In this document: piece by piece, positions 1-29,880 of the stretch | Layout: each line of letters starts with the position of its first letter | How positions within the stretch are numbered: position 1 is the first letter of the stretch | Origin: Granulosicoccus sp. | Lineage (GTDB): Bacteria > Pseudomonadota > Gammaproteobacteria > Granulosicoccales > Granulosicoccaceae | Reading direction: 5' to 3' | Length of the DNA: 44,023 nucleotides | NCBI GenBank assembly: GCA_023301795.1 | Contig: JALZVU010000069.1 | Span: 1 to 44,023, forward strand | Notes under the pieces: generated by a model | What the model was told of the DNA's origin: nothing | What the model saw: the letters and a program-made list of their open reading frames with translations, nothing else | Database searches by the model: none | Position numbers and translations under genes: made by a program

Positions 1-3000
1 ACCTGTGCAGCAGGATTGCCTGATCCGTTCGTAACCACTGGCGCTGGCGATCCGCCGTTGAGCGCTGAATGTGATGCACCATTCATGTGGCTATGACCAT
101 TGAGAGACGCAGCAGCTGGAGCTGCAGGTGCCGACGTGGCGACACTGTCTGTTGTTGGCATAGGGTTCGGTAACGCAATCTGCTCTGCTGGCATGGTCAA
201 CGCCGCACCAGCCCCGCCGCCCATTAATCCGGCTGCAATGTTCAAATACGATTGATGGGCTGCGGTAACCGCTGCCATGTAATCTGCATGTACCGCCGAT
301 ACATCATTAAACAGGGTTCGACGCATCGAATCTGATAACGCAGCAGGCTGCGCATGCGCCTCGCCCGTCACGTCGGTTTGGTGCGCACCATTAGTTTGCG
401 GTGTACTTGAAACGGGCTGCGACTGGTGACATTGAGCGGCCTGTGAGGATGCTGAAGATTGATTTTGCATGACCATAGTTGATTTAGCCGCAGCTGATGG
501 TTGATGAGAGGTAACGTCGACGGCGAAAGCGTGTTGCCTGGACTGCGTCGAGTGTTGTGTTTGTACTGCCGCAACTGCACGGGATCCGTTTGCAGATCCG
601 AATGATCGAGCTGCAGATAGTGTTCTGACGGAGACAGGTGCTTTGCGCATCCTTGCCAATCCGGACGACTGTGTCGTCCTGAGTATTGCAGCGCCGTTCG
701 ACTGCTGAGGTACAGGTACTGCCGGTTGAGCTACCTGAGCGACTAGCGATGCAGGCTTTGCGACAGCCGCAACCCCTGACTCAACTACTTTCAAACCGTG
801 TTCTTTCTGATTGGGTTCTGGCACCTGCTCACCTTGCGGCGGATAAGGCTTCTGATAGTTACTGCCCAGAATGTCCACCGCAAACTTACCGGGTTCTACA
901 CGCTCCAACGGTGCTGGCAGTCCTTCGTACAGACTGGCAATATCTACAGCTATGCCTGACACTGCCAGCTGCCCAACAGCACACAGCAAAGACGTCGTAC
1001 CGTTGCCGGCTTTGTCATCCAGTGCAATGGCGTTAACACCGATGTTGGGCAACGTTTTGCGAACAAGATTAGTGAGCACCGAGCCCGGGCCAACTTCCAG
1101 AAAGGTAGTAGCGCCTGCTGCATGCATGGCAAGCAGAGATTCGCGGAATTTTACTGACTCGCCAATTTGTCCACTTAAGAGCGTAACGATATCAGCGGCG
1201 TCTGATGGGTAAGGTTTTGCTGTGCTGTTGGCATACACCGACGTTGTCGGTGTGCCTAATGCATGCGATGACAATGTTTGAGCGAAAGGCTGTACAGCCT
1301 GAGCGACCTGTGGTGAATGGAAGGCTGCCGCCACGGGTAATGTCTGGCTGTTGATATCCTGGCTGGCAAGTAAGCTGGCAACGTGCTGCAAATTTGTCTT
1401 ATCGCCCGACAAAATGACTTGCTCTGGCGCATTGTCATTGGCTAGCGTAATTCCCTGACGCACCTCTGAAGGCATGCCAGCGAGCGCTTCTGCAGTCCGA
1501 TTTGCTGAGGCCTGCACGGCTAACATGCCGCCACTTGTTGACGCGGCTGCGGTGCTCATGGCGTTTGCACGTTCGCAGGCGATAGTCAGTGCAGTGGGTG
1601 CATCAAACACACCGGCACTGTGCAAAGCCATCACCTCACCAAAACTGTGTCCGGCCTGCATATCGGCACGCACACCCAGTTGTCTGAGCAGCGCCAGTTG
1701 CGACAATGCAACAGCGGCAATAGCAGGCTGCGCGTTTTGCATAGCCGTTAACTTTGCCGTGGCTGCAGAGGCAGCCTCATCGGTAAACATCGTAGGTGGG
1801 AATGCCAGATCGTGCAATTTCAAATCAGCGGTGGCAGGCAGATCACACGCAGAATCCCATACCGCTCTTGCTTGCCCAAAAGCCATAGCGATATCCGCGC
1901 CCATGCCCACGTACTGACTACCTTGCCCGGCAAACAGCAGTGCAAGCTTGCCGGGTACAGCGAGCCCTTCGTTATAGCGAATGTACTGATTGGGCAACAC
2001 AGGTGCGTGCTTGCCTTGACCAATCAATGTGATCAGCTTTGCTTTCAACGTTGTTAGATGCTGTGGTGTCTCAGCGACGATGGACGCACGGTGCGCATGT
2101 TTGGGATCAAACCCTGTCCACGTCTGAGATGCGACACGGGCTAGATCATCTTCATGCACGACGCCCAGTGTAATAGCCTCCACCTGCTCACACAGGCCCG
2201 ATGCCGTAAACGCCGAGAACAACAACAGCTCTGCAGGCATGACGCGTGTAGGTTGCACAGCGTTCTTGCCTGTGTATTCCTCAAGCGTTACGTGAAAGTT
2301 GCTTCCTCCAAAACCAAACGAGCTTACCGAAGCCCTGCGCGGATGGGCTGAGCCACGAATCCAAGGTCTGGCCTGAGTGCCAAGATAAAATGGCGTGTCT
2401 TTGCACAATGCTTCTGCAGGTTGGCGCACTTTAATAGTGGGTGGCAATATTTTACGACTCAGACCGCCAATCACTTTCAGCAATCCTGCAGCACCTGCGG
2501 CCGCTTTGGTATGACCTATCTGCGCTTTCACAGACCCTAACGCACACCAGGGAGTATCCGCATCCCCATCCGGGTCGAATACACTGTGCAAGGCTTCCAG
2601 TTCGGTTTTATCACCTGCGACGGTACCGGTACCGTGCGCCTCTACCAGCTCGACAGTTCTAGGCGAGTAGCCTGCCTTGCGATAGGCGCGTGTCAGTGTG
2701 CGTTCCTGGCCGCTGGCGAGTGGCGCGTAGACAGCCGTAGAGCGGCCATCAGATCCGCCGCCAAGGCCTTTGATGATGGCGTGAATTCTATTTCCGTCGC
2801 GTTCCGCATCAGACAGGCGTCGCAAGGCCATCATGCCAACACCTTCGCCCAGCATCGTGCCATCGGCGTCAGCAGATAAGGGGCGGCAGTCACCACTGGG
2901 GGATAGCGCTGGTGTCTTGGAGAAACACATGTACATGAAGATGTCGTTCAAGGCATCTACGCCACCTGTAAGTACAAGATCAGAATCTCCGGCATGCAGT

Positions 3001-3677
3001 TCATGCAACGCTATCTGCATTGCAGACAGACTTGAGGCGCACGCTGCATCAGTGACGTAGTTGCTCCCACCAAAATCTAATCGATTGGCGATACGTCCAG
3101 CAACCACGTTGCCAAGTAGTCCGGGGAATGTAGTCTCTTTCCATTCAACGAAGTTGGTACTGATTCGATCTGCAATGTCTTGTACTTGCGCCTCATCAAG
3201 ACCTGCTTCACGCATGCCTTTGACCCAGGCGGGACGCTGCAGTCGTCCAACCATTTGCCCTGCCAGCTCGGTAGCCGCAGCAACGCCAAGAATTACACTG
3301 GCGCGAGACTTGTCCAGTGGGCCATTAGTTTCGCGCTCCATATCATCAAGCACGCTACGCGCCGCTACCAGCGCAAGCAGTTGCGCGGTGTCGGTGCTGG
3401 AGAGGGAATTGGGAGGCACGCCGAACGCCAGTGGATCGAACGAGGTGGGCGGTAGGAATGCGCCCCGTGAGCCATAGGTTCGATCACGAGCGCTCTTGTC
3501 GCTATCGTAGAAGTCGCCCGTTAGCCAATGGGTGCTAGGCACCGATGTGAAGGTGTCAACGCCTTCAACGATGTCGCGCCAGAATCCTGTCGTATCGCCT
3601 CGGCCCGGAAAAATCGAGCCGATAGCAACGACAGCAATGGGCTCAGCTGCATTGTTCGGATGCTCACTACTTGTCAC
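1..3677 (-). CDS. Pfa-like type I polyketide/fatty acid synthase, KS-AT part (3' end beyond window)
   Basis: N-terminal 1225 residues of a multidomain synthase; the 3' end lies beyond the left edge. A ketosynthase domain (about residues 10-450) carries DAACASS with the active-site Cys near 213, VEAHGTGT with His near 348, and the GHTKAAAG motif. An acyltransferase domain (about 560-900) carries FAGQGSQ and GHSFGE with the nucleophile Ser near 678. About 300 residues of Ala/Gln/Ser/Pro-rich linker follow, as is usual before tandem ACPs in PfaA-type enzymes; no ACP is reached. The start is GTG at 3677, because an in-frame TGA lies four codons upstream and AGTAGG sits just ahead. It lies 25 bp behind the PfaD-type gene and is probably co-transcribed. 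KS and AT catalytic residues look intact. The product (PUFA or another secondary lipid) cannot be told from this part. Confidence 0.9.
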   Translation of the reverse strand, partial: MTSSEHPNNAAEPIAVVAIGSIFPGRGDTTGFWRDIVEGVDTFTSVPSTHWLTGDFYDSDKSARDRTYGSRGAFLPPTSFDPLAFGVPPNSLSSTDTAQLLALVAARSVLDDMERETNGPLDKSRASVILGVAAATELAGQMVGRLQRPAWVKGMREAGLDEAQVQDIADRISTNFVEWKETTFPGLLGNVVAGRIANRLDFGGSNYVTDAACASSLSAMQIALHELHAGDSDLVLTGGVDALNDIFMYMCFSKTPALSPSGDCRPLSADADGTMLGEGVGMMALRRLSDAERDGNRIHAIIKGLGGGSDGRSTAVYAPLASGQERTLTRAYRKAGYSPRTVELVEAHGTGTVAGDKTELEALHSVFDPDGDADTPWCALGSVKAQIGHTKAAAGAAGLLKVIGGLSRKILPPTIKVRQPAEALCKDTPFYLGTQARPWIRGSAHPRRASVSSFGFGGSNFHVTLEEYTGKNAVQPTRVMPAELLLFSAFTASGLCEQVEAITLGVVHEDDLARVASQTWTGFDPKHAHRASIVAETPQHLTTLKAKLITLIGQGKHAPVLPNQYIRYNEGLAVPGKLALLFAGQGSQYVGMGADIAMAFGQARAVWDSACDLPATADLKLHDLAFPPTMFTDEAASAATAKLTAMQNAQPAIAAVALSQLALLRQLGVRADMQAGHSFGEVMALHSAGVFDAPTALTIACERANAMSTAAASTSGGMLAVQASANRTAEALAGMPSEVRQGITLANDNAPEQVILSGDKTNLQHVASLLASQDINSQTLPVAAAFHSPQVAQAVQPFAQTLSSHALGTPTTSVYANSTAKPYPSDAADIVTLLSGQIGESVKFRESLLAMHAAGATTFLEVGPGSVLTNLVRKTLPNIGVNAIALDDKAGNGTTSLLCAVGQLAVSGIAVDIASLYEGLPAPLERVEPGKFAVDILGSNYQKPYPPQGEQVPEPNQKEHGLKVVESGVAAVAKPASLVAQVAQPAVPVPQQSNGAAILRTTQSSGLARMRKAPVSVRTLSAARSFGSANGSRAVAAVQTQHSTQSRQHAFAVDVTSHQPSAAAKSTMVMQNQSSASSQAAQCHQSQPVSSTPQTNGAHQTDVTGEAHAQPAALSDSMRRTLFNDVSAVHADYMAAVTAAHQSYLNIAAGLMGGGAGAALTMPAEQIALPNPMPTTDSVATSAPAAPAAASLNGHSHMNGASHSALNGGSPAPVVTNGSGNPAAQ

Positions 3678-3702
3678 GCGTATACCTACTCAATCCGGTT
3701 TT

Positions 3703-5355
3703 TTACTCAAAGACTTGAGGATTGTAACGGAACGCGCCCTCCGGCAGTGCTACGCCAAACGATCGAAGCTGTGCCGCACGGGTAACACGCGCCGCTCCTT
3801 CCAGCAAATTCCACGCAATTTGGCGCACAGTGCGGTTCTCCAAAGGCTCCAGACAGGTACCTTTGGCCCAGTGATTAAATGCACCCATGGCAGGCCCACA
3901 CCAGATCTGATAATCAGCCTCTCGTGCAGCTTCACCATCGCGCGCCCATTGCGAGGCCATGAATAGGTAACGGCGGCACAACAGTGCAAAACGATAGTTG
4001 CCATCGGTTTGCGCGCTGGCCAGAGCCTGGGGGTTGTTCTGCTGCAGGTAATCAGCCGTCTCACTCCAGGCGGTGTCGATGCTTTGCCCCAAACGCTTTT
4101 CGAACCATTCGCGATCAACAGTCGACAGGGCGTCCAATGTTGTGCCGGCACGGTAGAGCGTATGCAGACGCTTAGCGTACAGACCAAACAAGGTGCCGCG
4201 TTTAAGCACCTGTACGTCCACGCCCTGCTCGAACATATCAGCGGCTGGTGCCATCATCACATCAGCTGCACCCGCTTGCGCGAGCATCTGGCGCGCTTGT
4301 TTAGACAAGCCAGACTCCAACGCAGGTTGATTGACCGAGCCACTCAGCACATAGGCCGCACCCATTTGAAAAGCCCCAGCCACCGCCTGTGGGGTTGCAA
4401 TGCCCCCTGCCAGGCCAATTCGGATTGAGCGATCATCAAAGCCGTGTTGGCGAGCAATTCTGCCGGCAGTCTCGAGCAATGAACTGAACAATACCGAGGC
4501 TGGGCGGTTATCGGTATGCCCACCTGAATCTGATTCTGCAGTGATATCTGCTGCTACCGGCACCAACGCTGCCAGCTGCGCCTGTTGTTCGCTGATATCG
4601 CCTTTTGCGACAAGCTCACGCAGCATCTCAACAGGTGCGGGTGACATGAACTTCTCCGCTACCTCTACTCGCGAGACTTTGGCAAACACATGGGTATGAC
4701 GTTCGATGCGATCACCCGAGCGGCGCAAGCCCTGCGCGCTATAGCGTACGATTTCGGGTGAAAGCTGCATGAACGCAGATGCCGATACCCGTTTTACCTG
4801 TGTTTCCAGGAACAGATCCACAACAGCGCGCTCCATGTCAGGTTGCTGTGGAGAATGAATGAGATTAGCGCCCCAGGTGAATTCTGGTGACGGAAGCGCA
4901 GCCTTGATTTTTTCAATGCCAACGCGTACTTCAGTCAGTGGTAAGCCTGCACTGCCGTAGAATCCAAGGAGCCCTGCTTTGGCTGCGGCCACCACCATCT
5001 CAGGGGTGGCAATGCCACGCGCCATCTCGCCCACCACATAGGCAAAGCGGGTGTTGTGTACCGCTGTGAAACCGCGATCACCCAACCACTCAGGGTAGAC
5101 CGGTGGGATGCGAAAGCACTCGTCTGGGTTTAATCCAGAGGCTATTTGAGCGTCCACTACCGTGTAACCCCCCTCCACACTACAGTGGACATTGACGCTC
5201 TCGCGCGGTGTCTTTAGAGCGCTGACGAGTGGCGAGTCAATGACCGGTGCCATCGCTGGCATAGGAGTGAAAACTGGATTTGCGGCATCGGTCAATATCA
5301 TGTCGGACGTGGGGTCGATGTGGCGTGTCCTGACATTGTATAGCGAGATGAGCAC
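3703..5355 (-). CDS. pfaD: PfaD family enoyl reductase of a PUFA/polyketide synthase
   Basis: A 550-residue FMN-dependent TIM-barrel protein of the PfaD family (related to nitronate monooxygenases), which acts in trans as the enoyl reductase of Pfa synthases. Visible signatures include GEMARGIATPEMVVAAAKAG and GLLGFYGSAGLPL in the first third, WGANLIHSP, and the cofactor phosphate-binding stretch GLAGGIATPQAV followed by GAAYVLSGSVNQ. The C-terminal third (YQIWCGPAMGAFNHW) is typical of PfaD and absent from plain nitronate monooxygenases. The start is GTG at 5355, with GGAAAG eight bases ahead; an ATG lies 18 codons further in. It is the first gene of the cluster, followed 25 bp later by the KS-AT synthase. 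In Shewanella-type clusters pfaD comes last; the pfaD-first order is more like myxobacterial clusters. Confidence 0.93.
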   Translation of the reverse strand: MLISLYNVRTRHIDPTSDMILTDAANPVFTPMPAMAPVIDSPLVSALKTPRESVNVHCSVEGGYTVVDAQIASGLNPDECFRIPPVYPEWLGDRGFTAVHNTRFAYVVGEMARGIATPEMVVAAAKAGLLGFYGSAGLPLTEVRVGIEKIKAALPSPEFTWGANLIHSPQQPDMERAVVDLFLETQVKRVSASAFMQLSPEIVRYSAQGLRRSGDRIERHTHVFAKVSRVEVAEKFMSPAPVEMLRELVAKGDISEQQAQLAALVPVAADITAESDSGGHTDNRPASVLFSSLLETAGRIARQHGFDDRSIRIGLAGGIATPQAVAGAFQMGAAYVLSGSVNQPALESGLSKQARQMLAQAGAADVMMAPAADMFEQGVDVQVLKRGTLFGLYAKRLHTLYRAGTTLDALSTVDREWFEKRLGQSIDTAWSETADYLQQNNPQALASAQTDGNYRFALLCRRYLFMASQWARDGEAAREADYQIWCGPAMGAFNHWAKGTCLEPLENRTVRQIAWNLLEGAARVTRAAQLRSFGVALPEGAFRYNPQVFE

Positions 5356-9290: not shown

Positions 9291-9329
9291 AAAATCACAA
9301 AATCACATCGCTACCAGCTATGTGTTATG
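9291..9329 (+). promoter_or_regulatory. Candidate operator ahead of the first DeoR gene
   Basis: Immediately upstream of the regulator gene the 8-mer AAAATCAC occurs twice in tandem (9291-9298 and 9299-9306), followed by an ACAT...ATGT inverted pair up to the start codon. The AAATCAC half-site and the 8-mer TGTGTTAT (from 9321) recur in the ery divergent promoter near 20151-20188, which suggests shared regulation. Inference only. Confidence 0.3.
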
Positions 9330-10136
9330 TTGAATGTTACCAATATCACTCTAGCTCGGAATATCGTGTTGAAAGCTGATTCTCGGCGCCAAAAGATCGT
9401 TGAGTTGCTAGTAACAGAGGGCAGCGCCTCGCTGAATAGACTAGCCCAACACTTCGATGTCTCTATCATGACTATTCATAGAGATCTCGACGCTCTTGAG
9501 TCTCAGGGGTTGCTGCGCAAGCAACGCGGTGGCGCGACGGTAAAATCAAGCCTACAGTTCGAAAGCGATTTTCGCTATCGCGTGCAGATGTCGGCCAATG
9601 AAAAACGCAGCATTGCGCAGCGCGCTGCTGAATTCATCGAACCGGGCATGAGCGTCATGCTTGATGATGGCTCTACCTCTTTGGCGATTGCACCCTTTTT
9701 GATCGATAAAGCCCCCTTGACCATTATTACCAATAATCTTTCAGTAATTTCTGACCTAGGCGGCATTACGGGAATCACCGTGCTTGCGCTAGGCGGTACC
9801 TACTCAAAAAAATTCAATGGTTTCTTTGGCATATTGACTGAAAGCGCAATCGATGATCTACGCGCAGACGTCGCTTTCTTGTCCAGTTCTGCAGCTGACC
9901 CAGCATCCGCCTTTCATCAGGATCTGGAGGTAGTGGCGGTGAAGCGCCGTATGATCAAATCTTCGGCTCGCCGCTATTTAATTGTTGATCATCATAAATT
10001 TGAACGCACCGCGCTTTACTTCCTCGCCAAGCTAAGCGAATTTGATGGTGTAATCACAAACAGAGAACTGACGAGCTCTAACGCTGAGGCTCTGCAAAAC
10101 AATGGCATTTCACTTTATTATGCAGGTGACAATTGA
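9327..10136 (+). CDS. DeoR/GlpR family transcriptional regulator of the polyol locus
   Basis: A 269-residue DeoR-family repressor. The N-terminal winged helix-turn-helix (about residues 20-65) contains SRRQKIVELL and the family hallmark IMTIHRDLDALESQGLLRK. The C-terminal sugar-phosphate sensor domain (about 85-260) contains IEPGMSVMLDDGSTSLAI and LTIITNNLSVI. It heads a rightward set with EryH and EryI, and its stop is just upstream of the eryH start, so it probably controls erythritol genes through a phosphorylated intermediate. Codons GTG 9366 and TTG 9369 are possible alternative starts just before the HTH. A second, distinct DeoR regulator is encoded at 14804-15661. Brucella EryD fills the analogous role. 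Confidence 0.88.
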   Translation: MLNVTNITLARNIVLKADSRRQKIVELLVTEGSASLNRLAQHFDVSIMTIHRDLDALESQGLLRKQRGGATVKSSLQFESDFRYRVQMSANEKRSIAQRAAEFIEPGMSVMLDDGSTSLAIAPFLIDKAPLTIITNNLSVISDLGGITGITVLALGGTYSKKFNGFFGILTESAIDDLRADVAFLSSSAADPASAFHQDLEVVAVKRRMIKSSARRYLIVDHHKFERTALYFLAKLSEFDGVITNRELTSSNAEALQNNGISLYYAGDN

Positions 10137-10138
10137 GT

Positions 10139-10909
10139 ATGATCGACACCAAGAAGTTCTGGGTTGGCACCAGCTGGAAAATGAACAAGACACTGGCTGA
10201 GGCTGAAGGCTTTGCAACTGCATTGGCCACAACACAAGCTGAGCCAGCCATTCAACGCTTTATCATTCCTGCTTTTACAGCCGTTAGGCAGGTCAAGACG
10301 TTATTGGCAAACACCGACATAAAGGTAGGTGCTCAAAATATGCATTGGGCTGACGATGGGGCATGGACGGGTGAAATATCGCCATCAATGCTCACTGACT
10401 GCTCTGTCGATATCGTTGAGTTAGGACATTCCGAACGTCGCACCTATTTTGGTGAAACCAATGAGTCCGTAGGCTTGAAAACCGAGTCTGCGGTGCGTCA
10501 TGGCCTTATACCGTTAATCTGTTTGGGAGAAACGGCCGACGAAAAATCTACTGGGCGCGCCACCGAAATTCTTCGAAGACAAGTTGAGGCTGCGCTGGAG
10601 CGCTTAAGCGTGCAGCAGCATCAAGCCCCCATATTGCTGGCCTATGAGCCAGTATGGGCTATCGGTGCACACGGCAAACCAGCAACGCCCGAATACGCCG
10701 ATGAACAGCAGGCAAACATCATTGACGCGGCTGAAAACATTGTCGGTCGCGCATTGCCTTGCCTTTATGGAGGGAGCGTAAATCCTGACAACTGTACAGA
10801 GCTTACTAAGTGCCCCCATATTAATGGTTTGTTCATTGGTCGCTCTGCATGGCAGGTTGAGGGGTATCTGGACATCCTTTCCCGATGCAGGTCAGCTTTG
10901 ACAAACTAG
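10139..10909 (+). CDS. eryH: EryH: D-3-tetrulose-4-phosphate isomerase (TpiA2-type TIM homologue)
   Basis: A 256-residue TIM-barrel isomerase of the triosephosphate isomerase family. Catalytic residues are all present: Lys in TSWKMNK, His in ELGHSERR, Glu in AYEPVWAIG, plus the phosphate-binding YGGSVNPDN. The usual Asn of the NWKMN motif is Ser here, as I recall for the TpiA2/EryH subfamily. In Brucella, EryH moves the carbonyl of D-3-tetrulose 4-phosphate to give D-erythrulose 4-phosphate. ATG 10139 is preferred because AGGTGA lies nine bases ahead; a TTG at 10133 is only three bases from it. It follows the DeoR gene without a gap, and EryI follows. A housekeeping TpiA role is possible but unlikely in this setting. 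Confidence 0.88.
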   Translation: MIDTKKFWVGTSWKMNKTLAEAEGFATALATTQAEPAIQRFIIPAFTAVRQVKTLLANTDIKVGAQNMHWADDGAWTGEISPSMLTDCSVDIVELGHSERRTYFGETNESVGLKTESAVRHGLIPLICLGETADEKSTGRATEILRRQVEAALERLSVQQHQAPILLAYEPVWAIGAHGKPATPEYADEQQANIIDAAENIVGRALPCLYGGSVNPDNCTELTKCPHINGLFIGRSAWQVEGYLDILSRCRSALTN

Positions 10910-11032
10910 GCATCTTAGAAATAAATAAAATACAAACACAGCAGTAGCTGTCACATACCAATATCAGTACCGAATTACGAATCAGCACCATAGACATACA
11001 ACAATCAACCGAGTCTAACAAAGGTTAATACT

Positions 11033-11494
11033 ATGAGAATCGCGATTGCAGGTGATAGCGCTGGAGCGGCTATGGCAGAATCACTGGCCAAGCACCTGAG
11101 TGGCCGGGATGGTCTACAAGTGTTCGACGTCAGTAGCCCACCTGAAGGTTCTGAGAGCTATTATGCTGAGCTGGCAGACCGTGTTGCCAGTGCTGTACTG
11201 AACGGCAGCTATGATCGTGCCATCCTTTGCTGCGGCACTGGCATAGGCGTCTGCCTGTCAGCTAACAAGGTACCAGGCATTCGAGCAGCACAAACGCACG
11301 ATACCTATTCAGCACAGCGTGCTGCCCTGTCAAACAACGCCCAGATAATCACCATGGGTGCGCGTGTCATTGGCGCTGAGCTTGCCAATACAATTGCCGA
11401 TGCTTTTATAGCCTGTAATTTCGATCCTGAAGGTCGTTCCGCAGCAAATGTCGATGCTATCAATGCACTCGATGCTAAGTATCATGACCAATAG
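11033..11494 (+). CDS. eryI: EryI: D-erythrose-4-phosphate isomerase (RpiB/LacAB family)
   Basis: A 153-residue RpiB/LacAB family sugar-phosphate isomerase. Motifs are the N-terminal [27 protein letters not shown] (active-site Cys and anion hole), the [15 protein letters not shown] stretch, and TMGARVIG. In the Brucella erythritol route, EryI converts D-erythrulose 4-phosphate to D-erythrose 4-phosphate, which enters the pentose phosphate pathway. ATG 11033 is preceded by AAAGG. It lies 123 bp after eryH and converges with the GlpD-like gene, whose stop is only 24 bp away. A ribose-5-phosphate isomerase B function is the alternative; the neighbouring EryA, EryB, EryC and EryH argue for the tetrose role. 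Confidence 0.85.
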
Positions 11495-11517
11495 CCAGCT
11501 TTTATATTCTTCTCTGT

Positions 11518-13221
11518 TCACAAATGCATTCGATGTTTCTCGGCAAGTTGTTGAACGACATCTTCCATCTCTTGACGGGTACGCTCGGCACCCCAGCCAA
11601 GGGCGGCGTCTGCAACAGTCGATATCTGTTCCAGATCATAAGCTGTCAACGACCCGGTTATCGCTAGCGTTGTTCGTCTTAGAATGACATCAAGCAAATG
11701 CTCAACACATTCATTTTTTACTATGTAATCAAGTTCTGCGAAACTATAATGACTAGAGTCTCGCAGACGCACGTCGTCGCTCCACGGCCCCCGGTGGTGT
11801 GCAATAAGTAATGCACTAGTACCATACCGTTCTAATAACTGTACAACACGATCTTCTGCCAATCCGGTTTTGGCGGTAGCCTCATTCATCCATTGTTTAC
11901 GTGCGGCTGTATTTTGCGGAAATCCCCTGCCCCCACCAATGGGCAATGATTGTGTACTCATGACACGAGGACGCGCCAGTCTCTCCAGGATGACATCGGC
12001 AACCTCTTCAGCAAAACCACGAAACGTTGTCCATTTTCCACCTATCAGCGAAATAATCGGAAAGGCACGCTGGGTGTCCGCTTCAGCCACTGGCGCAGAA
12101 TGATCTCGGCTAATCAGGCCAGGTATGGATGCATTGCTCGCTGGCAGCGGCCGAATTCCACTATACGCATAGACCACCTGAGTGGCTTCAAACTGCAGCT
12201 CAGGCAGTAGCGCTCTTACACTATCCAGGAAATAGTCAACTTCCTCTGGCTCGCAGTACACCGCGTCAGGATCATCAGCTGCCGTGTCGGTCGAGCCCAC
12301 CATCGCAAGCCCAAGGTATTCGAATACTAGACAGATTCGGCCATCATCCGCTTCAAAATAGATCATCCTACCTGCCAGGCTTTGTACAAGCTCATCATGC
12401 TTCAACAGGATATGAGAACCCTTGGTACCTCCTATCATTTTCGAAGGAGCCCCCAGCACTGAGTTGACCTGATCAATCCATGGGCCAGCAGCATTCACCA
12501 CAATGCGCGGGCGCACTGTAAACGGTTCACACTCATGGGTTTTAAATTCTATTAATTCACCCTTGCATTGTTGGATTGAGGTGTAGTTCACCGCCGCAGA
12601 TAATGTATTGGCAATAAGGCCATCCGTAATCAATTCAAGAACAAGCCGCTCGGGATGGATAATTGTTGCGTCGTGATAGACACCAGCGGCGACAATTGAA
12701 GAGGTAATAGCAGGCATTTCCTGCAATGCCCGCTTTCGCCCTAACAGACGGTGACGCGGCATGACACGATGTCGCGAACCGTAAAAATCGTACATTGCCA
12801 AGCCAATCTTGATCAGAACAGCTCCCCGGCTACGAGGCGCAGTGGTTGATCCGAATAACGTGCGCAATGCCGCGAAAATACCTCGAGTCCAGGAAAATAC
12901 AGGAATCAATGTCTCAAGGGGCTTAACCAAATGTGCTGCGTTCTTGAGCAACAGATTTCGCTCAAGGGTAGATTGAGCCACCAGACCAAGCTCTCCGGTT
13001 TCCAGGTACTTGAGCCCTCCATGGATCAATCGGGAGGGGGCGGCACTAGTACCACCTCCAAAGTCACCCTTCTCCACCAGCAGACAAGTGACTCCCTGCA
13101 AACATAAATCACGGAACAAACCGACACCATTAATGCCACCACCGATAATGACAACATCAACTTCATGCTCGTGATCTGGAGCAATAATAGATCGTGCCCC
13201 AAACAACTGGTTTTTTTTCAT
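11518..13221 (-). CDS. GlpD-like FAD-dependent polyol-phosphate dehydrogenase (second copy)
   Basis: A 567-residue member of the FAD glycerol-3-phosphate dehydrogenase family. The N-terminal FAD-binding motif is VVIIGGGINGVG, followed by VEKGDFGGGTSAAPSRL and LIHGGLKYLETGE, the flavin/substrate region of the GlpA/GlpD group. Mid-protein NAAGPWIDQVN and GTKGSHILL, and LIGGKWTTFRGFAEE, are also family hallmarks. It should oxidise a polyol phosphate next to the phosphate carbon and pass electrons to the quinone pool. It starts at ATG 13221, overlapping the kinase stop by four bases (ATGA), so kinase and dehydrogenase are translationally coupled. It is clearly divergent from the EryB at 21877-23388. 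The substrate is unknown: threitol phosphate, ribitol phosphate or glycerol 3-phosphate are all possible. Confidence 0.85.
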   Translation of the reverse strand: MKKNQLFGARSIIAPDHEHEVDVVIIGGGINGVGLFRDLCLQGVTCLLVEKGDFGGGTSAAPSRLIHGGLKYLETGELGLVAQSTLERNLLLKNAAHLVKPLETLIPVFSWTRGIFAALRTLFGSTTAPRSRGAVLIKIGLAMYDFYGSRHRVMPRHRLLGRKRALQEMPAITSSIVAAGVYHDATIIHPERLVLELITDGLIANTLSAAVNYTSIQQCKGELIEFKTHECEPFTVRPRIVVNAAGPWIDQVNSVLGAPSKMIGGTKGSHILLKHDELVQSLAGRMIYFEADDGRICLVFEYLGLAMVGSTDTAADDPDAVYCEPEEVDYFLDSVRALLPELQFEATQVVYAYSGIRPLPASNASIPGLISRDHSAPVAEADTQRAFPIISLIGGKWTTFRGFAEEVADVILERLARPRVMSTQSLPIGGGRGFPQNTAARKQWMNEATAKTGLAEDRVVQLLERYGTSALLIAHHRGPWSDDVRLRDSSHYSFAELDYIVKNECVEHLLDVILRRTTLAITGSLTAYDLEQISTVADAALGWGAERTRQEMEDVVQQLAEKHRMHL

Positions 13222-14741
13222 GACACGGGATCCGCCAGACTCTCGATGTGTGGCCATTGCGCTTGAAGTGTCTGCGCAAGGCTTGTAAATATCGAAAAGC
13301 GCTTATTGTAAACTTCAGTTCTTGCACTGTCTGGCTGAAATAACCGCGCATCAGTATCAAACAAACGCGGACCATTGTGCACAGATGGGTATATTCCGAC
13401 AGCCGTACCCGCACAGATTGCTGCACCATAAGCTGCAGGCTCATCGCACGATGTGACCAGCACAGGCAGCCCAAGAACATCGGCAAACATCTGAGCAAAA
13501 GTCGTATTTCTCGATCCACCGCCTGTGAGCCGAACTTCGCGGAAATCAAAACTATCGTGAAGAGCTTCAACGTGGGTACGATGGTTAAAGCTAATCCCTT
13601 CTAGCACAGCTTTCAGCATATCGCCGCGATCATGCCAGCCGCGCAATCCTATAAAACTGCCACTGGCAACATCACCAAACGGCGAGCCAAAAAGATAAGG
13701 ATGAAAGAGTACAGTGGATGACCTGTGCATTGCCTGTTCGATTTCCTGCCCCAACAGTACGTGGATTGATTGTTGATTAGCGCATGCAATATCTTGTTCC
13801 AGACGACAAAAGGTATCGACAAACCAGTCATAATTTGCAGTTGATGCTGGGGAGATGGCCATGTGATTCCAGCGCGTTGGTTCAATCGCGCTACGACACA
13901 TCCAGCGCTGATCAATATGTGGTGTGGTATCAACTATTTCATTGATCGAATAGGTACCGGCAACAATACTCAACACATGATCATCGTGGCCACCCACACC
14001 TAATGCTGAAGCTGTGACATCGTGCAATCCGCTGGCAACAGGAAGGCCCGCAACAAGCCCAGTTAATTCGGCAGCCTCAACCGTCACATGTCCGATCACT
14101 TGGGCAGAATGCGTTACCGGTGGCAATGCATCGAACAAGCCTTCAAGCTCGTAAAGCTCCATTGCCAGCCGGGAGTAAGACTGAGAATGAACATCAGTGA
14201 AGGAGGCGCTAGCTTCGGTACGATCGGTTCCAATCGAACCACTGAGACAATAACGTAGCCAGTCTTTGCAACTCAGGATGTGCGCAATCTGGCGATAGCG
14301 CGTTGGCTCATGTTCTTGGATCCAGGCCAGTAATGCCGAGGGTGCTGAGACGTGAGGCACCTGCCCTGTTAAAGAGAGAGCCTTCTCAAAAACAAGTCCT
14401 GTTGACCAGCGTTCGATAATACCGCCGGCACGACTATCAAGCGACAGAATACCTGGACCTAGCGGTTGATTATGTTTATCAAGTAAGTAGAGCCCATCAC
14501 CGTGTGCAGTCGCGGCAACCGCCTTGATATCATCTGATGGCCTACCACTCAGAGCAAGCGCCTCCCTGATAGCCGCCGCTGTTTCCAGCCAGAGCACAGA
14601 CATATCGCGCTCAACATGCCTAGGTTGCGGCATTGACTGAGGTGTCCTGCGGCGGGCGACTGATAACTGCGTCCCGTCAACATCAAAGATCACAGCTTTG
14701 GTGACGGTGAGCCCATTGTCGATCCCGAGTAAGCTTGGCAT
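13218..14741 (-). CDS. FGGY-family carbohydrate kinase, LyxK-like (second polyol kinase)
   Basis: A 507-residue two-domain FGGY kinase. The first ATP-phosphate loop is GIDNGLTVTKAVIFD, then AATAHGDGLYLLD, SCKDWLRYCLSG and, in the second domain, VRLTGGGSRNTTFAQMFADV with DEPAAYGAAICAG (adenosine region). The overall pattern resembles L-xylulose/3-keto-L-gulonate kinase (LyxK) more than EryA, with which it shares the family but few signature stretches. It presumably phosphorylates the polyol brought in by the ABC transporter encoded upstream, for the coupled GlpD-like dehydrogenase downstream (ATGA overlap). ATG 14741 is the only good start. The substrate cannot be read from sequence. Confidence 0.87.
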   Translation of the reverse strand: MPSLLGIDNGLTVTKAVIFDVDGTQLSVARRRTPQSMPQPRHVERDMSVLWLETAAAIREALALSGRPSDDIKAVAATAHGDGLYLLDKHNQPLGPGILSLDSRAGGIIERWSTGLVFEKALSLTGQVPHVSAPSALLAWIQEHEPTRYRQIAHILSCKDWLRYCLSGSIGTDRTEASASFTDVHSQSYSRLAMELYELEGLFDALPPVTHSAQVIGHVTVEAAELTGLVAGLPVASGLHDVTASALGVGGHDDHVLSIVAGTYSINEIVDTTPHIDQRWMCRSAIEPTRWNHMAISPASTANYDWFVDTFCRLEQDIACANQQSIHVLLGQEIEQAMHRSSTVLFHPYLFGSPFGDVASGSFIGLRGWHDRGDMLKAVLEGISFNHRTHVEALHDSFDFREVRLTGGGSRNTTFAQMFADVLGLPVLVTSCDEPAAYGAAICAGTAVGIYPSVHNGPRLFDTDARLFQPDSARTEVYNKRFSIFTSLAQTLQAQWPHIESLADPVS

Positions 14742-14803
14742 GTTCGCGTCTCGCTCCGTTTACTGGGTTACTGACCGACAATCCATGAAATTACTCGCCC
14801 AAG

Positions 14804-15661
14804 CTATTGTTCAGACAATTGCCGAGTAGATTCAAGCGGGCCGCTATTGACGGGGGCGACGACAATATTGATACCCTTATTACGCATGCGATTCAAGTGT
14901 TCAATAGGCGTTCCATCATCAAAAATGACAATATCAAAATCGCTTAGCGGCAGAAAACTATGCAATGCCCGTCGCTCAAGCTTAGAGTGATCCATTAGCA
15001 GGATGCGCCTGGACGCCGAATCAAACATGGCTTTCTTGCTTTCGATCATATCGGGTGATTGATGAAAACCGATGTCATCTGTAATAGCAGCCATTGACAT
15101 AATTAATGTATCTGCGCGTAAACCTGCTATTTCGTTGTTGGTCATATGCCCCATGAATGCGTTACACCAGCTGTAGTGCTGACCACCCAGTGCAAGCAAT
15201 GTCAGGTCACGTACATCTTTTAGCTCATTCATTAAAGTCAGAGAGTTTGTGATGACAGTCAACGGTACCTTCGAGGGCAGCAAAGCTGCCATCTGTAGCA
15301 CCGTCGTGGAGTCATCAAGAAAAATAGCGTGGCCAGGCTCCACATAATTCATTGCCATCTTTGCAATAGCGTATTTTTCAGTAGCCTGTCGACTGGAGCG
15401 GTAAACATCGCTAGCTTCTATCAGGCTGGTAGGTGCAGCGGAAGCTATACCACGGGACTTGCGTAACAATCCTCTATTAACCAACTCATCAAGATCACGA
15501 TGGATGGTCATTAAACTGATTTCGAAGCGTTCAGCCAGATCATCAATCCGCACTGAACCCTCACTCATCACAAGCTCAGCTATAGATTGCTGCCGTGTAA
15601 GTTGACGGGCCTGTCGATTATCAACCGGTAATACGTCGGGCTTTGGGGTATCAGTATTCAT
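14804..15661 (-). CDS. DeoR/GlpR family transcriptional regulator (second copy)
   Basis: A 285-residue DeoR-family regulator. The winged HTH (about residues 20-75) includes RQQSIAELV, VRIDDLAERFEISLMTIHRD and LVNRGLLRKSRG; the effector domain includes VEPGHAIFLDDSTTVLQ and LTVITNSLTLMNEL. It lies inside the leftward operon, between the sugar-binding-protein gene and the kinase, so it is probably auto-regulated through the operon promoter near 20109-20247. It is related to the regulator at 9327-10136 but clearly different, so the two may respond to different polyol phosphates. A C-terminal Ser/Glu-rich tail is of no obvious significance. Confidence 0.87.
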   Translation of the reverse strand: MNTDTPKPDVLPVDNRQARQLTRQQSIAELVMSEGSVRIDDLAERFEISLMTIHRDLDELVNRGLLRKSRGIASAAPTSLIEASDVYRSSRQATEKYAIAKMAMNYVEPGHAIFLDDSTTVLQMAALLPSKVPLTVITNSLTLMNELKDVRDLTLLALGGQHYSWCNAFMGHMTNNEIAGLRADTLIMSMAAITDDIGFHQSPDMIESKKAMFDSASRRILLMDHSKLERRALHSFLPLSDFDIVIFDDGTPIEHLNRMRNKGINIVVAPVNSGPLESTRQLSEQ

Positions 15662-15719
15662 GCAAACAAATTATTGATCTTCGATTTGCCTGTGAGCATT
15701 GTGCAGGTCGCATTACGAT

Positions 15720-15746
15720 GGGGAGTGCAGCTATGCTGCACTCCCC
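15720..15746. terminator. Perfect 12-bp stem with triloop after the binding-protein gene
   Basis: GGGGAGTGCAGC-TAT-GCTGCACTCCCC, a very stable hairpin 9-35 bp past the stop of the sugar-binding protein and upstream of the DeoR gene. No T-run follows on the transcribed (minus) strand. It may be a partial terminator or, more likely, a stem that protects the abundant binding-protein mRNA and lowers expression of the distal genes. Confidence 0.6.
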
Positions 15747-15754
15747 TCCTACGA

Positions 15755-16714
15755 TCACTCAGACAGCGTGAAAGGAGCTGTCATTTTATCTACATTTTCC
15801 GTTGTAATAAGCAGGCAATCGAATAACTGCTTTTCACTGTCAGCACCTGTTTCACCCGTTTTCAGGAACGAATCAGCTTGCATTACAGCTTCTCTGGCAA
15901 ATACCGCAACTGGCTGCAATACAGAATACTGCATGGTGCCTGCTTTGATCGCTGCTACTGCATCAGGAGAACCGTCGAAGCCGCCGACCTTCACCATGTC
16001 CAGCTTTCCCGCTTCCTTGAGAGCGGCGATAGCGCCTAGTGCCATTTCGTCGTTACCACTAATCACTCCGATAATATCAGGGTTGGCCTGCATCAGATTC
16101 TGCATCTTGTTGTAGCCCTCTGTTCGATTCCAGTTAGCTACTTCAGAACCTGCTTTTTCCAGATCCGGGTATTGGCTGAGCACCGTGTCGTAACCGTTTG
16201 AGCGAGTCGCCGCATTGTTATCAGACGGTGCACCAAAAAGCTCAACGTACTTCCCAGCATCTCCAACAGTCTCTACCCATTGCTGTGCTCCTAGCGCTGC
16301 ACCCTGTGCGTTATTCGATACCAACTGCGCAGTTGCAATGCCTTCTTCGTTGATTTCAGCGTTGACCAGAAAAACCGGAATGTTGGCTGCAACTGCTTTC
16401 TTGACTGCACCAATCGAACCACTGGCATCGGCAGGATCAAGAATGATCGCAACCGACTTGTTGGTTATTGCCGTATCGATCAAGTTGCTCTCTGCGTTTG
16501 TATCACCCTTGTGTGCACCCACAGTAGACTCATAGCCCAGCTCCTCTGCAGTAGCTGCAGCAACGTTGCCTTCAGTCAGCCAGTAAGGATTCGCAGGGTC
16601 GTTAACGATGATCGAGATAAGACCTTCGGCTGAGGCCGTGCTGGCAGCTCCGGCAAGTCCGAGAGCTGTCAGAGCGATGGCTGCATAGCGAATGATAGGT
16701 TTATGTTTGAACAT
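15755..16714 (-). CDS. Periplasmic sugar/polyol-binding protein of ABC transporter
   Basis: A 319-residue type I periplasmic binding protein (RbsB-like). A signal peptide (AAIALTALGLAGAASTASA) precedes the mature start EGLISIIVNDPANPYW, in which the NPYW motif binds the ligand in ribose/galactitol-type receptors. Later hallmarks are AIILDPADA, IGVISGNDEMALGAI and VGGFDGSPDAV. ATG 16714 is chosen for AAAGGA nine bases upstream and the immediate signal peptide; the frame stays open further upstream without one. It works with the permease and ATPase encoded just before it. The ligand is inferred from context to be erythritol or another short polyol; rhizobial EryG/Mpt systems are analogous. A stable hairpin follows the gene. 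Confidence 0.88.
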   Translation of the reverse strand: MFKHKPIIRYAAIALTALGLAGAASTASAEGLISIIVNDPANPYWLTEGNVAAATAEELGYESTVGAHKGDTNAESNLIDTAITNKSVAIILDPADASGSIGAVKKAVAANIPVFLVNAEINEEGIATAQLVSNNAQGAALGAQQWVETVGDAGKYVELFGAPSDNNAATRSNGYDTVLSQYPDLEKAGSEVANWNRTEGYNKMQNLMQANPDIIGVISGNDEMALGAIAALKEAGKLDMVKVGGFDGSPDAVAAIKAGTMQYSVLQPVAVFAREAVMQADSFLKTGETGADSEKQLFDCLLITTENVDKMTAPFTLSE

Positions 16715-16769
16715 GAAGTTTATTCCTTTAGATGGTGGGTTGTGCCGCCAGTCACCCGGCGATTTTCTC

Positions 16770-17888
16770 TTAAGCAGAATCAGCCGACTGCGCCTTGGCT
16801 CCCTGCGGTGGAGAATTGGGTTGAGGAGCTGAGGACTCCGGTTTTTTGGATTTCGCTGTGTATTGGACGCTGTTGAGCAGCACTGCCAGCACGATGACGG
16901 CGCCAGTGAAAACAGTTTGCCAGTAGGACGAAATTCCGATGATAACGAGCCCATCAGACAAAAAACCAATGACAAATGCACCCAGCAAAGTACCTTGAAC
17001 ACTGCCGCGACCTCCGGTCAGCGCAGCGCCTCCAATGACAACAGCAGCAATCGCTGTGAGTTCGTACGTTGTACCTGCCGTTGGACCCGCTGAGGTGAGT
17101 TGGGATGACAGGATAAGGCCAGCTATTGCGGCACAAATACCGGATAGCATGTAGACAGATACCTGTACCCCCTTAACGGGTACGCCAGATAGCTCTGCTG
17201 CACGCTCGTTACCGCCCGATGCATATAGCCAGCGACCAAAGGCTGTGCGACTTAGTACGAGACCGAAAATGAGCGCAATGACTGCCAGCAAGATCACACT
17301 GATGGGTACGCCGAACAAACGCTCAAAGCCAAGCCAATCAAACCCCGTGTTGCCTAGTTCAGGTTTGCCACCAAGGTTGTTATACGTTAGCCCGTTAGTC
17401 ATCAGCAAAGCCACCCCTCGGGCAACGTACAACACACCCAGCGTAGCCACAAACGCAGGCACCTTGAAGTACGCGATTAGTACGCCGTTTATCAATCCAA
17501 CGAAAGCACCCATTGCACACGTAAGCACCACCACCACCCAGAGTGACGGATAGAGCACAACTCCGAAAACATCGAGGGTAATGCCCTGCATGAGAAATCC
17601 GGCGAACACACCTGACAGCCCGAGCGTGGAACCTACCGACAAATCAATGCCGCCGTTCAATATAACCAGCAACATTCCAATGGCGAGAATGCCAAATATC
17701 GCAACGTGCGATGACATAACGAGGAAATTGTTCAGTGAAAAATAATTGGGCGACAAGATTGAAAACACAATAATGATGACAATCAATGCAAAGAAAGCAC
17801 GCCCTTCAAGCAATAATCTGATCAGATTGAAATCCTTACCTGCAGAATTGGCAGGCGTGGAAATTGTGTCTGTACTACTGTCACTCAT
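16770..17888 (-). CDS. Sugar/polyol ABC transporter permease (RbsC family)
   Basis: Inner-membrane permease of about 372 residues with roughly ten hydrophobic segments. Family marks include LSPNYFSLNNFLVMS, NGGIDLSVGSTLGLSG, PAFVATLGVLYVARG, and the EAA-like loop near GGAALTGGRGSVQGTLLGA. A hydrophilic Pro/Gln/Ala tail ends the protein. ATG 17888 has GGAG nine bases ahead; an ATG five codons earlier (17903) has no Shine-Dalgarno. It lies between the ATPase and binding-protein genes, and a single permease probably forms a homodimer. It should carry the polyol across the inner membrane. Confidence 0.9.
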   Translation of the reverse strand: MSDSSTDTISTPANSAGKDFNLIRLLLEGRAFFALIVIIIVFSILSPNYFSLNNFLVMSSHVAIFGILAIGMLLVILNGGIDLSVGSTLGLSGVFAGFLMQGITLDVFGVVLYPSLWVVVVLTCAMGAFVGLINGVLIAYFKVPAFVATLGVLYVARGVALLMTNGLTYNNLGGKPELGNTGFDWLGFERLFGVPISVILLAVIALIFGLVLSRTAFGRWLYASGGNERAAELSGVPVKGVQVSVYMLSGICAAIAGLILSSQLTSAGPTAGTTYELTAIAAVVIGGAALTGGRGSVQGTLLGAFVIGFLSDGLVIIGISSYWQTVFTGAVIVLAVLLNSVQYTAKSKKPESSAPQPNSPPQGAKAQSADSA

Positions 17889-17916
17889 CCGTCCAGGCTC
17901 CATAATTGTTGTCGTT

Positions 17917-19455
17917 TCATGCAGCTACGGACTCACCAGACGCTGCCATAATTTTTTCTTTGGAAACATCTGCGCCAAACTGCGCCGCTATCCTGCCTCG
18001 GCGCATGACAACAATTCGATGAGCAATACTCAAGCATTCGGTAACCTCAGAGGTTGAGAACACCACAGCGAGTCCTTGTTTGGCGCGTTCACTCAACAAT
18101 CGGAATACTTCGGCCTTGGCGCCTACATCAATTCCACGGCTAGGTTCATCGAGCAGCAATACCCTAGGATGGGTGGTCAGCATTTTGCCAATAACAACTT
18201 TTTGCTGGTTGCCTCCAGACAACGACCCTATCGCAGCCTCAGGACCCGAGGTCTTGATGTGCACTTTGGCAATCGAATTTTCTATCAACACATTTTCCAT
18301 TGGGCGGTTCAGAAAAAAAGCACGTACAAACGCACCAATACTGGCCAGCGACAGGTTCCGGCCCACAGACATGGTCTGCACAAGACCGTCGCGCTGCCGA
18401 TCTTCAGGTACGAGCACCAGGCCGTTGCCAATACGCTGCGCTATGCTCTGCTGCGCGATATTGCGGCCTTCCAGCACCACCGTGCCACCCGCTATCGGAA
18501 CACGCCCAGCAACAGCTTCAAGCAGCTCAGTGCGGCCAGCGCCCATCAAACCGTAAATACAGACAATCTCTCCAGCTCGCACATTCAATGAAAGATGATC
18601 TACCACCAGATGCCCTCGCCCATCATCGACACTGACATCATCAACAGACAACGCAACGTCACCAAAGTCATAACCGCCTGGTGGCCTCCCCAAATCAAAA
18701 TTCTCACCGACCATGTTGCGCACTATCCATTGCAGATCAATGTCTTTGCGAGAGGCTGCAGCGGTCATCGCGCCATCACGCAACACCACAGCATGATCAG
18801 TGATTTGCAGGGCTTCTTCGAGATGGTGTGAGATATAGACGATGGAAACACCCCGACTGGTAAGGTCACGAATCACCTTAAACAGCACCTCGACTTCAGT
18901 AGCACTGAGTGCTGAAGTAGGCTCATCCATGATCAGAATTCGCGAATCTACCGAAAGAGCCCGCGCAATCTCGACAATTTGTTGCTGCCCAAGCCGAAGA
19001 TCCTCGACCAGTGTCATCGGATTAATATCTTCTTCGAGTTCGGCCATAAGAGCGCTCGCCTGACGAGCTTCTTCAGCAAAATCGACCCCGGTAGCAGATC
19101 GCAGTTCGCGTCCCATAAAGATATTGTCTCGAACGCTCAAATTGGGTGCAAGACTAAGCTCCTGGTGAATAATAGAGATTCCATGGTCACGCGCATCAGT
19201 GGAAGATGAAAAAGTAACTCTGTTGCCATCGAGGATAATGCTGCCAGATGTCGGAGTGACCACACCGGAGAGAATTTTCATAAGCGTGGATTTCCCCGCG
19301 CCATTCTCACCGAACAAGGTGGTGACCTGACCCCGTTGAATCTCGAAATTTACGCCTCGCAACGCTTGCACAGCACCATAGGATTTTGCAACGTTATGGG
19401 CTGCAAGAACGACGTTATCGTCGAACGCTAGCGCTTCACCTGTTGCACCCATCAT
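17917..19455 (-). CDS. Sugar/polyol ABC transporter ATP-binding protein (RbsA/MglA family, duplicated NBD)
   Basis: A 512-residue fused double nucleotide-binding protein. NBD1 (about 15-250): Walker A GENGAGKST, signature LRLGQQQIVEIARAL, Walker B ILIMDEPTSAL, and His in ISHH. NBD2 (about 260-505): a degenerate A loop GLMGAGRTELL, signature LSGGNQQKV and VLLLDEPSRGIDVG. Such asymmetry is standard for the CUT2 sugar importer class. ATG 19455 overlaps the stop of the DUF2291 gene (ATGA), so it is translationally coupled. It energises the RbsC-type permease encoded next. Confidence 0.93.
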   Translation of the reverse strand: MMGATGEALAFDDNVVLAAHNVAKSYGAVQALRGVNFEIQRGQVTTLFGENGAGKSTLMKILSGVVTPTSGSIILDGNRVTFSSSTDARDHGISIIHQELSLAPNLSVRDNIFMGRELRSATGVDFAEEARQASALMAELEEDINPMTLVEDLRLGQQQIVEIARALSVDSRILIMDEPTSALSATEVEVLFKVIRDLTSRGVSIVYISHHLEEALQITDHAVVLRDGAMTAAASRKDIDLQWIVRNMVGENFDLGRPPGGYDFGDVALSVDDVSVDDGRGHLVVDHLSLNVRAGEIVCIYGLMGAGRTELLEAVAGRVPIAGGTVVLEGRNIAQQSIAQRIGNGLVLVPEDRQRDGLVQTMSVGRNLSLASIGAFVRAFFLNRPMENVLIENSIAKVHIKTSGPEAAIGSLSGGNQQKVVIGKMLTTHPRVLLLDEPSRGIDVGAKAEVFRLLSERAKQGLAVVFSTSEVTECLSIAHRIVVMRRGRIAAQFGADVSKEKIMAASGESVAA

Positions 19456-21804: not shown

Positions 21805-21876
21805 ATCAAGAGCATGTACCTCAAGAACAGTTTCCAATGCTCTGAGCAACTAGAGCCAGTACCAAAGGATTTATAA

Positions 21877-23388: not shown

Positions 23389-23401
23389 ACAGGAAATCCC
23401 A

Positions 23402-29869: not shown

Positions 29870-29880
29870 GATGTTATCCT

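Follow-up and report, generated by a model that had tools for sequence, protein, structure and literature searches.

Pfa-type secondary lipid synthases are described as holding at least one ketosynthase (KS), acyl carrier protein (ACP) and ketoreductase (KR), with combinations of malonyl-acyltransferase (MAT), acyltransferase (AT), chain-length factor (CLF), dehydratase/isomerase (DH/I) and enoyl reductase (ER) domains; multiple tandem ACPs distinguish them but are not required, and the ars clusters have one (PMC3098273). The polyunsaturated fatty acid (PUFA) synthases carry from two to over ten ACPs (PMC4882568). The order in which pfaD, the ER gene, comes first has been known from Types L and J since 2011 (PMC3098273): in Aetherobacter, assigned to Type L, the pfaD homologue lies upstream and arachidonic (ARA), eicosapentaenoic (EPA) and docosahexaenoic (DHA) acids are made (PMC4882568), and in Minicystis pfa1, pfa2 and pfa3 correspond to pfaD, pfaA and pfaC, the loci of Azospirillum melinis and Tahibacter aquaticus being syntenic (PMC8436480). 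Here we analyse a pfa cluster at the left edge of a stretch of 44,023 nucleotides from Granulosicoccus sp. (the window), which is the entire contig C69 (JALZVU010000069.1) of the draft genome GCA_023301795.1 (G000; 5.78 Mb in 313 contigs, 97% complete). Judged from its sequence, the cluster is an intact, reduced member of a known lineage, in which the gene order is ordinary and the domain losses are the unusual part.

In the order of transcription the cluster reads pfaD (ER), pfaA1 (KS-AT-one ACP), pfaA2 (KR alone) and pfaBC (KS-CLF-AT-DH-DH, where DH is dehydratase), with 25 bp between the first two genes and 2 bp between the last two, and the minimum Pfa-type set of KS, ACP and KR with partners is present. 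The pfaD product scores 533.9 bits against TIGR02814 (cut-off 449.25), is the sole match to this model in the genome at E 0.001, is 78-80% identical to those of two relatives of the same genus, and matches the PDB chains named PfaD, 6lkc (3.5e-126) and 4yx6 (4.8e-123). Its translation probably begins with the Met at about 5301 (532 aa) and not with the upstream GTG, because the alignment with 536-aa relatives begins near there. The adjoining gene encodes a KS (PF00109, 4.5e-52) and an AT (PF00698, 8.4e-36). Thus, the preliminary description of this DNA, in which a Pfa-type synthase with pfaD ahead of the KS-AT gene had been recognised, agrees with the TIGR02814 and KS/AT matches of the two minus-strand open reading frames (ORFs), with the domain content, and with the place of the window among Pfa sequences in the KS tree described below.

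The rest of the cluster lies on another contig, C280, whose last 99 bases are identical to the first 99 of the window; when positions 1-3000 of the window were used as a query, the only matches in the genome were C69 and C280. The KS-AT frame remains open across the overlap and stops after residue 1354, 129 residues beyond the window and past one ACP (PF00550, 3.9e-10; a single profile match, residues 1282-1352). The join is supported because a relative, L026, has the whole KS-AT-ACP protein (1297 aa) in one contig, where the same layout is unbroken, with a pfaD of 536 aa, a KR gene of 479 aa and the start of PfaBC. In the genome G020 an exact overlap between its two pfaBC-bearing contigs was sought and none was found. 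The earlier remark that no ACP is reached in 1225 residues is therefore true of the part in the window but reflects the contig end, and a synthase without ACP was rejected, since the contig ends before the ACP and the same frame on C280 reaches it. To the left, where the preliminary description had proposed to count ACPs, there are one ACP, a separate KR gene and a fused PfaBC with two FabA-like DH domains. The coordinates are collected in Table 1.

Table 1. Features of the pfa cluster and of its immediate surroundings (positions of the window unless contig C280 is named).
Feature	Position	Strand	Remark
pfaD, enoyl reductase (ER)	3703..5355	minus	550 aa from upstream GTG; TIGR02814
pfaA1-like gene (KS-AT-linker-ACP), 5' 1225 codons	1..3677 (ORF 3-3677)	minus	open at window edge
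pfaA1-like gene end	C280:30177	minus	full protein 1354 aa
KS domain and C-terminal extension, residues 12-531	2085..3644	minus	Pfam; motifs DAACASS, EAHGTGT, IGHTKAA
AT domain, residues 581-878	1044..1937	minus	Pfam; GHSFGE motif
Ala-rich AT-ACP linker, residues 946-1281	1..842	minus	last part on C280
Conserved short segment inside linker, residues 1126-1172	162..302	minus	iterated profile
Exact overlap, 99 bp, with right end of contig C280	1..99	no strand	genome sequence search
KR gene (pfaA2), 476 aa	C280:28636-30066	minus	
PfaBC (KS-CLF-AT-DH-DH), 2086 aa	C280:22373-28633	minus	
RND adaptor	C280:21089-22288	minus	
RND permease	C280:18027-21092	minus	

In PfaBC a KS is accompanied by another KS-like region, by a PfaB-like AT whose 57.9 bits against TIGR02816 do not reach the cut-off (144.3), and by FabA-like domains. 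The motifs found comprise Cys and His of KS1, the serines of AT1 and of the ACP, those of the KR, Cys and His of KS2, and GLSLGE in AT2; in PfaBC, DH1 has His and an acidic residue (TLMAEA) and DH2 has His and Asp (SLGLDA), the latter aligning through HF..DP..PG..GLDA with FabA-type dehydratases of known structure (2cf2, 4b0b). The CLF region reads YSVSAEELS, without Cys, which we take to be the active-site position; the reading of each motif as an active site is likewise assumed from general knowledge of the families. Malonyl specificity of the AT is what we infer.

To place the gene order, loci were collected from a named genome collection, with at least 584 pattern matches, 521 confirmed among the matches listed, and the best 80 kept; these are the loci closest to the window, and the count of pfaD positions leans toward the window's own lineage. 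By script, 68 of these 80 loci have a pfaD on the same strand no more than 3 kb upstream, with a median gap of 17.5 bp and two gaps above 1 kb; nine lack it by the script's criteria and three (L060, L076, L112) have too little upstream DNA. Three of the nine (L063, L092, L104) do have an upstream pfaD beyond the gap limits, and six (L077, L081, L082, L098, L102, L107) are without one upstream. Of a further 26 rows, 11 have pfaD upstream and five downstream (L138, L139, L149, L150, L162); in nine it was not found, and one is too short. A class-wide search matched 17 of 369 genomes at 1e-150, and 10 exceed the cut-off of the omega-3 PfaA model (TIGR02813); among the loci of this class that pass it, six are pfaD-first (L140, L142, L143, L141, L031 and L144, in genomes G279, G281, G166, G346, G060 and G377), five of them only with neighbouring matches added. 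A plasmid search gave 153 records, 24 of the 40 listed being annotated as type I polyketide synthase (PKS); of six plasmid loci inspected, L157 and L161 are pfaD-first with the KR inside PfaA, L162 has pfaD downstream, and L158-L160 show no pfaD.

The order with pfaD first is common and already described, and it was rejected as the mark of a distinct product. The argument that it speaks against EPA or DHA does not hold, since pfaD-first Type L myxobacterial clusters make DHA, EPA and ARA (PMC4882568). As for a separate subtype, the sequences do form a clade distinct from the pfaD-last L138 and L139 and from non-lipid PKS rows, but the inference from gene order finds no support, pfaD-first being usual among the relatives. 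If the product does differ from EPA and DHA, the missing PKS-type DH and the single ACP, neither of which was visible to the preliminary description, are better reasons to expect it.

Two trees were built, both by quick searches and with mixed deep support: one of KS-AT (108 rows, 946 columns) and one of KS (106 rows, 459 columns, LG+C20, rooted on four chosen PKS rows), from which L029 and L153 were left out as long or partial rows. The three Granulosicoccus rows group together (SH-aLRT 100) and, with 17 Hyphomonadaceae-type rows, form a clade of 20 (SH-aLRT 100), the same 20 in both trees; of the 17, two bear no finer label than Alphaproteobacteria and another two bear the label Acidobacteria. 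The KS tree places the window in a 97-row Pfa clade (SH-aLRT 100), with nine other PKS rows outside (four of the nine being the set outgroup), and within it in a 91-row group (SH-aLRT 95) that is mostly pfaD-first. L138 and L139, with pfaD last, PfaBC fused and scores over the TIGR02813 cut-off, and the Rhodococcus plasmid row L162 are outside the 91-row group. The KS phylogeny, suggested earlier as a check, thus sets the window among Pfa rows and apart from non-lipid PKS, while its comparison with standard PUFA synthases is partial, verified Shewanella-type pfaA-B-C-D references being absent.

Some rows carry unexpected labels. L044 and L046 are contigs of metagenome-assembled genomes (MAGs) labelled Acidobacteria with clusters nested among Hyphomonas rows, and L108, from a MAG labelled Klebsiella pneumoniae, groups with myxobacterial rows; the three contigs are probably misbinned or mislabelled.

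The reduction concerns three parts of the synthase. One ACP was counted in the window protein and in L034, and two in all 15 other clade rows with an intact ORF (L025 and L043, cut by the locus end, and L036, whose PfaA ORF ends before the ACP, are omitted); a single ACP falls below the range given for PUFA synthases (PMC4882568) but is not unique, since with the same profile one was also found in L062, L077, L081, L082, L100, L102, L107 and L111, among others. Of the other clade rows, 15 have a complete KR gene, and in every one of these the protein ends 0-12 aa past the KR match (the window KR served as the query, and L035, L046, L025 and L043, cut by the locus end, are omitted); the window KR itself matches TIGR02813 up to its residue 472 of 476, at profile position 2270 of 2582. 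Outside the clade, 243-322 aa follow the KR in 47 of the 53 Pfa rows scored; L054, L056, L161, L069, L113 and L149 lack them.

The third part is the PKS-type DH. A first profile, for which nine of 50 rows were held out, recovered all six of the nine that are in the searched loci, and gave no match in the window, L003, L004, L025, L026, L169, L034-L048 and L050-L052; in the Azospirillum loci L054 and L161 it gave a weak match (46-51 bits) located in PfaBC. Searches of whole genomes with a second profile gave no match in G000, Hyphomonas jannaschiana (L042) or H. atlantica (L047), and were positive in all four control genomes, those of L095 and L089 (rows in the profile) and of L101 and L059 (not in it). 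On the KS tree at least four changes are needed to explain the distribution of this domain. A single clade of the 20 rows and Azospirillum is not rejected, however (p-AU 0.675; the tree constrained to it is 12.3 log units better than the quick tree), so one shared DH loss for those rows is possible.

The linker between AT and ACP had been called Ala/Gln-rich; it is indeed long (336 aa) and rich in Ala (22%, with Ser 11%, Pro 9% and Val 9%), but Gln is only modest (8%). It is of low complexity except for a short segment with the rough pattern S..H..YL......H..YLN.A (Table 1). An iterated profile, trained on its own hits, detected this segment in 72 of 91 linkers, the window's own included, and did not find it in the pfaD-last L138, L139, L149 and L162, nor in L142-L144, L031, L069, L092, L097, L109 and the other PKS rows.

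Compared with the described systems, Type L, in the pfa1-pfa2-pfa3 form of the myxobacteria Aetherobacter, Minicystis and Sorangium (PMC3098273, PMC4882568, PMC8436480, PMC6731297), shares pfaD (pfa1) in first place followed by the KS-AT-ACP protein, and a phosphopantetheinyl transferase (PPTase) at a separate locus; its Aetherobacter form also shares the fused KS-CLF-AT-DH-DH protein, as does Tahibacter L095. By contrast, Type L has the KR and a PKS-type DH inside the PfaA homologue, whereas here the KR has its own gene, the DH was not found and there is only one ACP. In Type L, moreover, pfa3 ends with an acylglycerolphosphate acyltransferase (AGPAT) domain; in PfaBC here the FabA match reaches residue 2075 of 2086 and no AGPAT Pfam family was found, nor was one in Tahibacter L095. 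Type D (Psychroflexus torquis) and Type H (Agrobacterium vitis), compared by description only (PMC3098273), share the split pfaA and fused pfaBC; Type D has, as here, pfaA1 (KS-AT-ACP), pfaA2 (KR) and a pfaBC of KS-CLF-AT-DH2, with five ACPs against one. Types A and B (Shewanella, Moritella; PMC3098273) have in common with the cluster the KS, MAT, ACP, KR, KS-CLF, AT, two FabA-like DH and ER activities, but in Type A pfaD comes last, pfaB is a gene of its own, there are 4-6 ACPs and the KR lies inside PfaA; L138 and L139, which stand in for Types A and B in the trees without being verified members, are outside the window's group. The Hyphomonas/Henriciella-type clusters (L035-L048, L050-L052), for which no published product was found, have the same architecture where complete, 55-58% KS-AT identity and no PKS-type DH found, but two ACPs in 15 of 15 intact rows against one here, and in seven loci a recurrent gene family adjoining pfaBC. 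No publication on these genes in Granulosicoccus or Hyphomonas was found among the matches listed, which is weak evidence of absence; the one listed paper in which Granulosicoccus is named along with polyketide synthases, PMC8547425, describes both Granulosicoccus MAGs and PUFA-type KS domains from a seagrass metagenome, and ties the PUFA-type domains to a myxococcal MAG and not to Granulosicoccus.

Taken together, the cluster most probably encodes an iterative type I secondary lipid machine, Type-L-like and PUFA-synthase-like, of the mostly pfaD-first kind, in a reduced form shared with Hyphomonadaceae, whose predicted product is a long-chain unsaturated fatty acid. The AT would load malonyl onto the single ACP, KS1 and KS2-CLF would extend the chain, and the KR would reduce it. 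Two FabA-like dehydratase/isomerases would carry out all dehydrations, including those that elsewhere belong to the PKS-type domain; PfaD would reduce the trans-2-enoyl intermediates destined for saturation, and isomerised cis bonds would survive. The PfaB-like AT2 would unload the chain, a role proposed for AT2 from PMC12895367, and an Sfp-type PPTase encoded elsewhere in the genome would activate the ACP. The product would be a mono- or polyunsaturated long-chain fatty acid made at low flux, as the single ACP suggests; its chain length and double-bond pattern are not predicted. The genes are under purifying selection: between G020 and G008 dN is 0.08-0.09 and dS 0.96-1.18, with dN/dS of about 0.07 for pfaD and 0.10 for KS-AT-ACP, dS being saturated between G000 and G020.

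Several observations weigh against this interpretation. Tandem ACPs and the PKS-type dehydratase, both usual in PUFA synthases, are missing. The part of the KS-AT protein in the window reaches 805.5 bits of the 1010.1 required by TIGR02813 (817.7, also below, in the class-wide search), a shortfall due at least partly to the splitting of the PfaA protein. The cluster is pieced together from two contigs of a draft genome, and no PPTase or thioesterase adjoins it among the annotated genes. The pfaD-first rows do not form a single clade: L142-L144 have this order and branch outside the 91-row group, and L149 and L150 have pfaD downstream yet branch inside it. To our knowledge, none of the members of the 20-row clade has a known product. 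Moreover, the characterised enzymes of Aetherobacter, Minicystis and Shewanella, and likewise the Moritella and other myxobacterial references, are absent from the trees, and for this reason the link to characterised enzymes rests on named relatives and on the literature.

It is possible, although we do not consider it probable, that we are dealing with an ordinary Type-L PUFA synthase making ARA, EPA, DHA or linoleic acid, in which the losses alter yield only and the type II fatty acid synthase or the FabA-like domains fill the missing step. The trees place the cluster in the same wider group as the pfaD-first clusters, and include Azospirillum melinis (L054) and Tahibacter aquaticus (L095), both syntenic with the Minicystis cluster (PMC8436480). 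The number of ACPs sets the yield and not the product profile (PMC5067506), and a stand-alone FabA-like protein, 40% identical to the DH query, is encoded in the genome (G000:C18). On the other hand, in the myxobacterial Pfa2 a swap of the PKS-type DH (DH1) moved the products between omega-3 and omega-6, a swap of the ER having no such effect (PMC6731297), so that its total absence could well change the product; and the clade-wide absence of this domain suggests a settled, different programme.

The missing PKS-type DH seems the best reason in the sequence to expect an altered double-bond pattern. In the current model this domain supplies, with the ER, the saturating cycles, and the FabA-like DHs give the retained cis bonds (PMC9702510, PMC9667614). 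A further step, taken only tentatively and in our view rather unlikely, would be to regard the Granulosicoccus/Hyphomonadaceae clade as an undescribed minimal subtype, with one or two ACPs and no PKS-type DH in the genome, in which the tandem FabA-like DHs perform every dehydration and the double-bond pattern is new among PUFA synthases. How PUFA synthases choose between saturated and cis-bond cycles is not settled, and a natural synthase under selection without the PKS-type DH offers a direct test of the model of PMC9702510: a known PUFA as product would call for a revision of the model, and any other product would be a new lipid. With four genes in about 13.5 kb and a single ACP, the cluster is also compact and lends itself to heterologous expression.

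A different destination for the product, namely a secreted specialised lipid or lipid-derived metabolite of zeamine-like logic, exported by the resistance-nodulation-division (RND) pump encoded 84 bp downstream of pfaBC, seems improbable to us. The RND adaptor and permease genes follow pfaBC in the same direction, a distant RND permease (25% identity) lies about 2 kb upstream of pfaD in Hyphomonas L050, and RND genes stand beside zeamine clusters in Dickeya (PMC13291983). However, no pump was found beside the cluster in G020, where a PhnA-domain gene comes after pfaBC, followed by the gene of a 4HBT thioesterase and by phenylacetate genes, and no PKS, nonribosomal peptide synthetase or aminotransferase domain was found among the neighbouring genes scanned. 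Finally, a PUFA synthase that has lost domains and is decaying or no longer functional, as the missing PKS-type DH, the single ACP and the patchy presence in three of 27 genus genomes (some incomplete) might suggest, is highly improbable, given four open ORFs with their active-site motifs kept, strong purifying selection between species, and the presence of this reduced design also in the Hyphomonadaceae-type rows, which have two ACPs and of which the one tested has a PPTase adjoining pfaBC.

The PPTases of G000 lie elsewhere in the genome. The motif reported for PUFA-type PPTases is (F/S)NxSH (PMC3098273). Three proteins were found, on C274 (255 aa, with FNISH), on C89 (238 aa, without the motif) and on C176 (126 aa, AcpS-like). 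In the family that adjoins pfaBC in seven Hyphomonadaceae-type loci, the one member tested (L038) has a PPTase domain, although a search for the motif in the Hyphomonas-type loci gave no match.

As regards the surroundings, neither side appears to belong to a conserved core. Downstream, the genes of the RND pump, a HAD hydrolase and a TetR protein were rejected as such because they have no match beside the G020 cluster, and the genes upstream of pfaD because they differ between G000 and the G008/G020 pair. The three genus genomes with pfaD over the cut-off include G000. The cluster genes have a GC content of 53-56%, against 45-50% in the C280 flanks and the rest of the window, which is compatible with a horizontal origin without proving it. 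In G041, which belongs to another genus of the family, locus L028 carries a different pfaD-first cluster, truncated by the end of its contig and with at least two ACPs; its KS-AT groups with the Acidimicrobiales MAG row L113 and not with the window, and this different branch within the same family suggests that Pfa clusters move between lineages. In L029 (G079:C18, 10351-12621) a PfaD-like ER is fused behind an acyltransferase-like domain and adjoins a large KS/KR protein, a layout that resembles a trans-AT PKS, here in a Gammaproteobacterium.

Further along the window, positions 9327-25000 encode a DeoR regulator, an FAD-dependent protein of the glycerol-phosphate-oxidase type, two FGGY kinases, a sugar-binding protein and a DUF2291 lipoprotein, with proteins whose translations read as TpiA-like and RpiB-like; this looks like a polyol catabolic locus, possibly erythritol-like. 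A minus-strand run at 26401-37007 contains an AMP-binding ligase and a fused enoyl-CoA hydratase/3-hydroxyacyl-CoA dehydrogenase, and looks like acyl-CoA catabolism.

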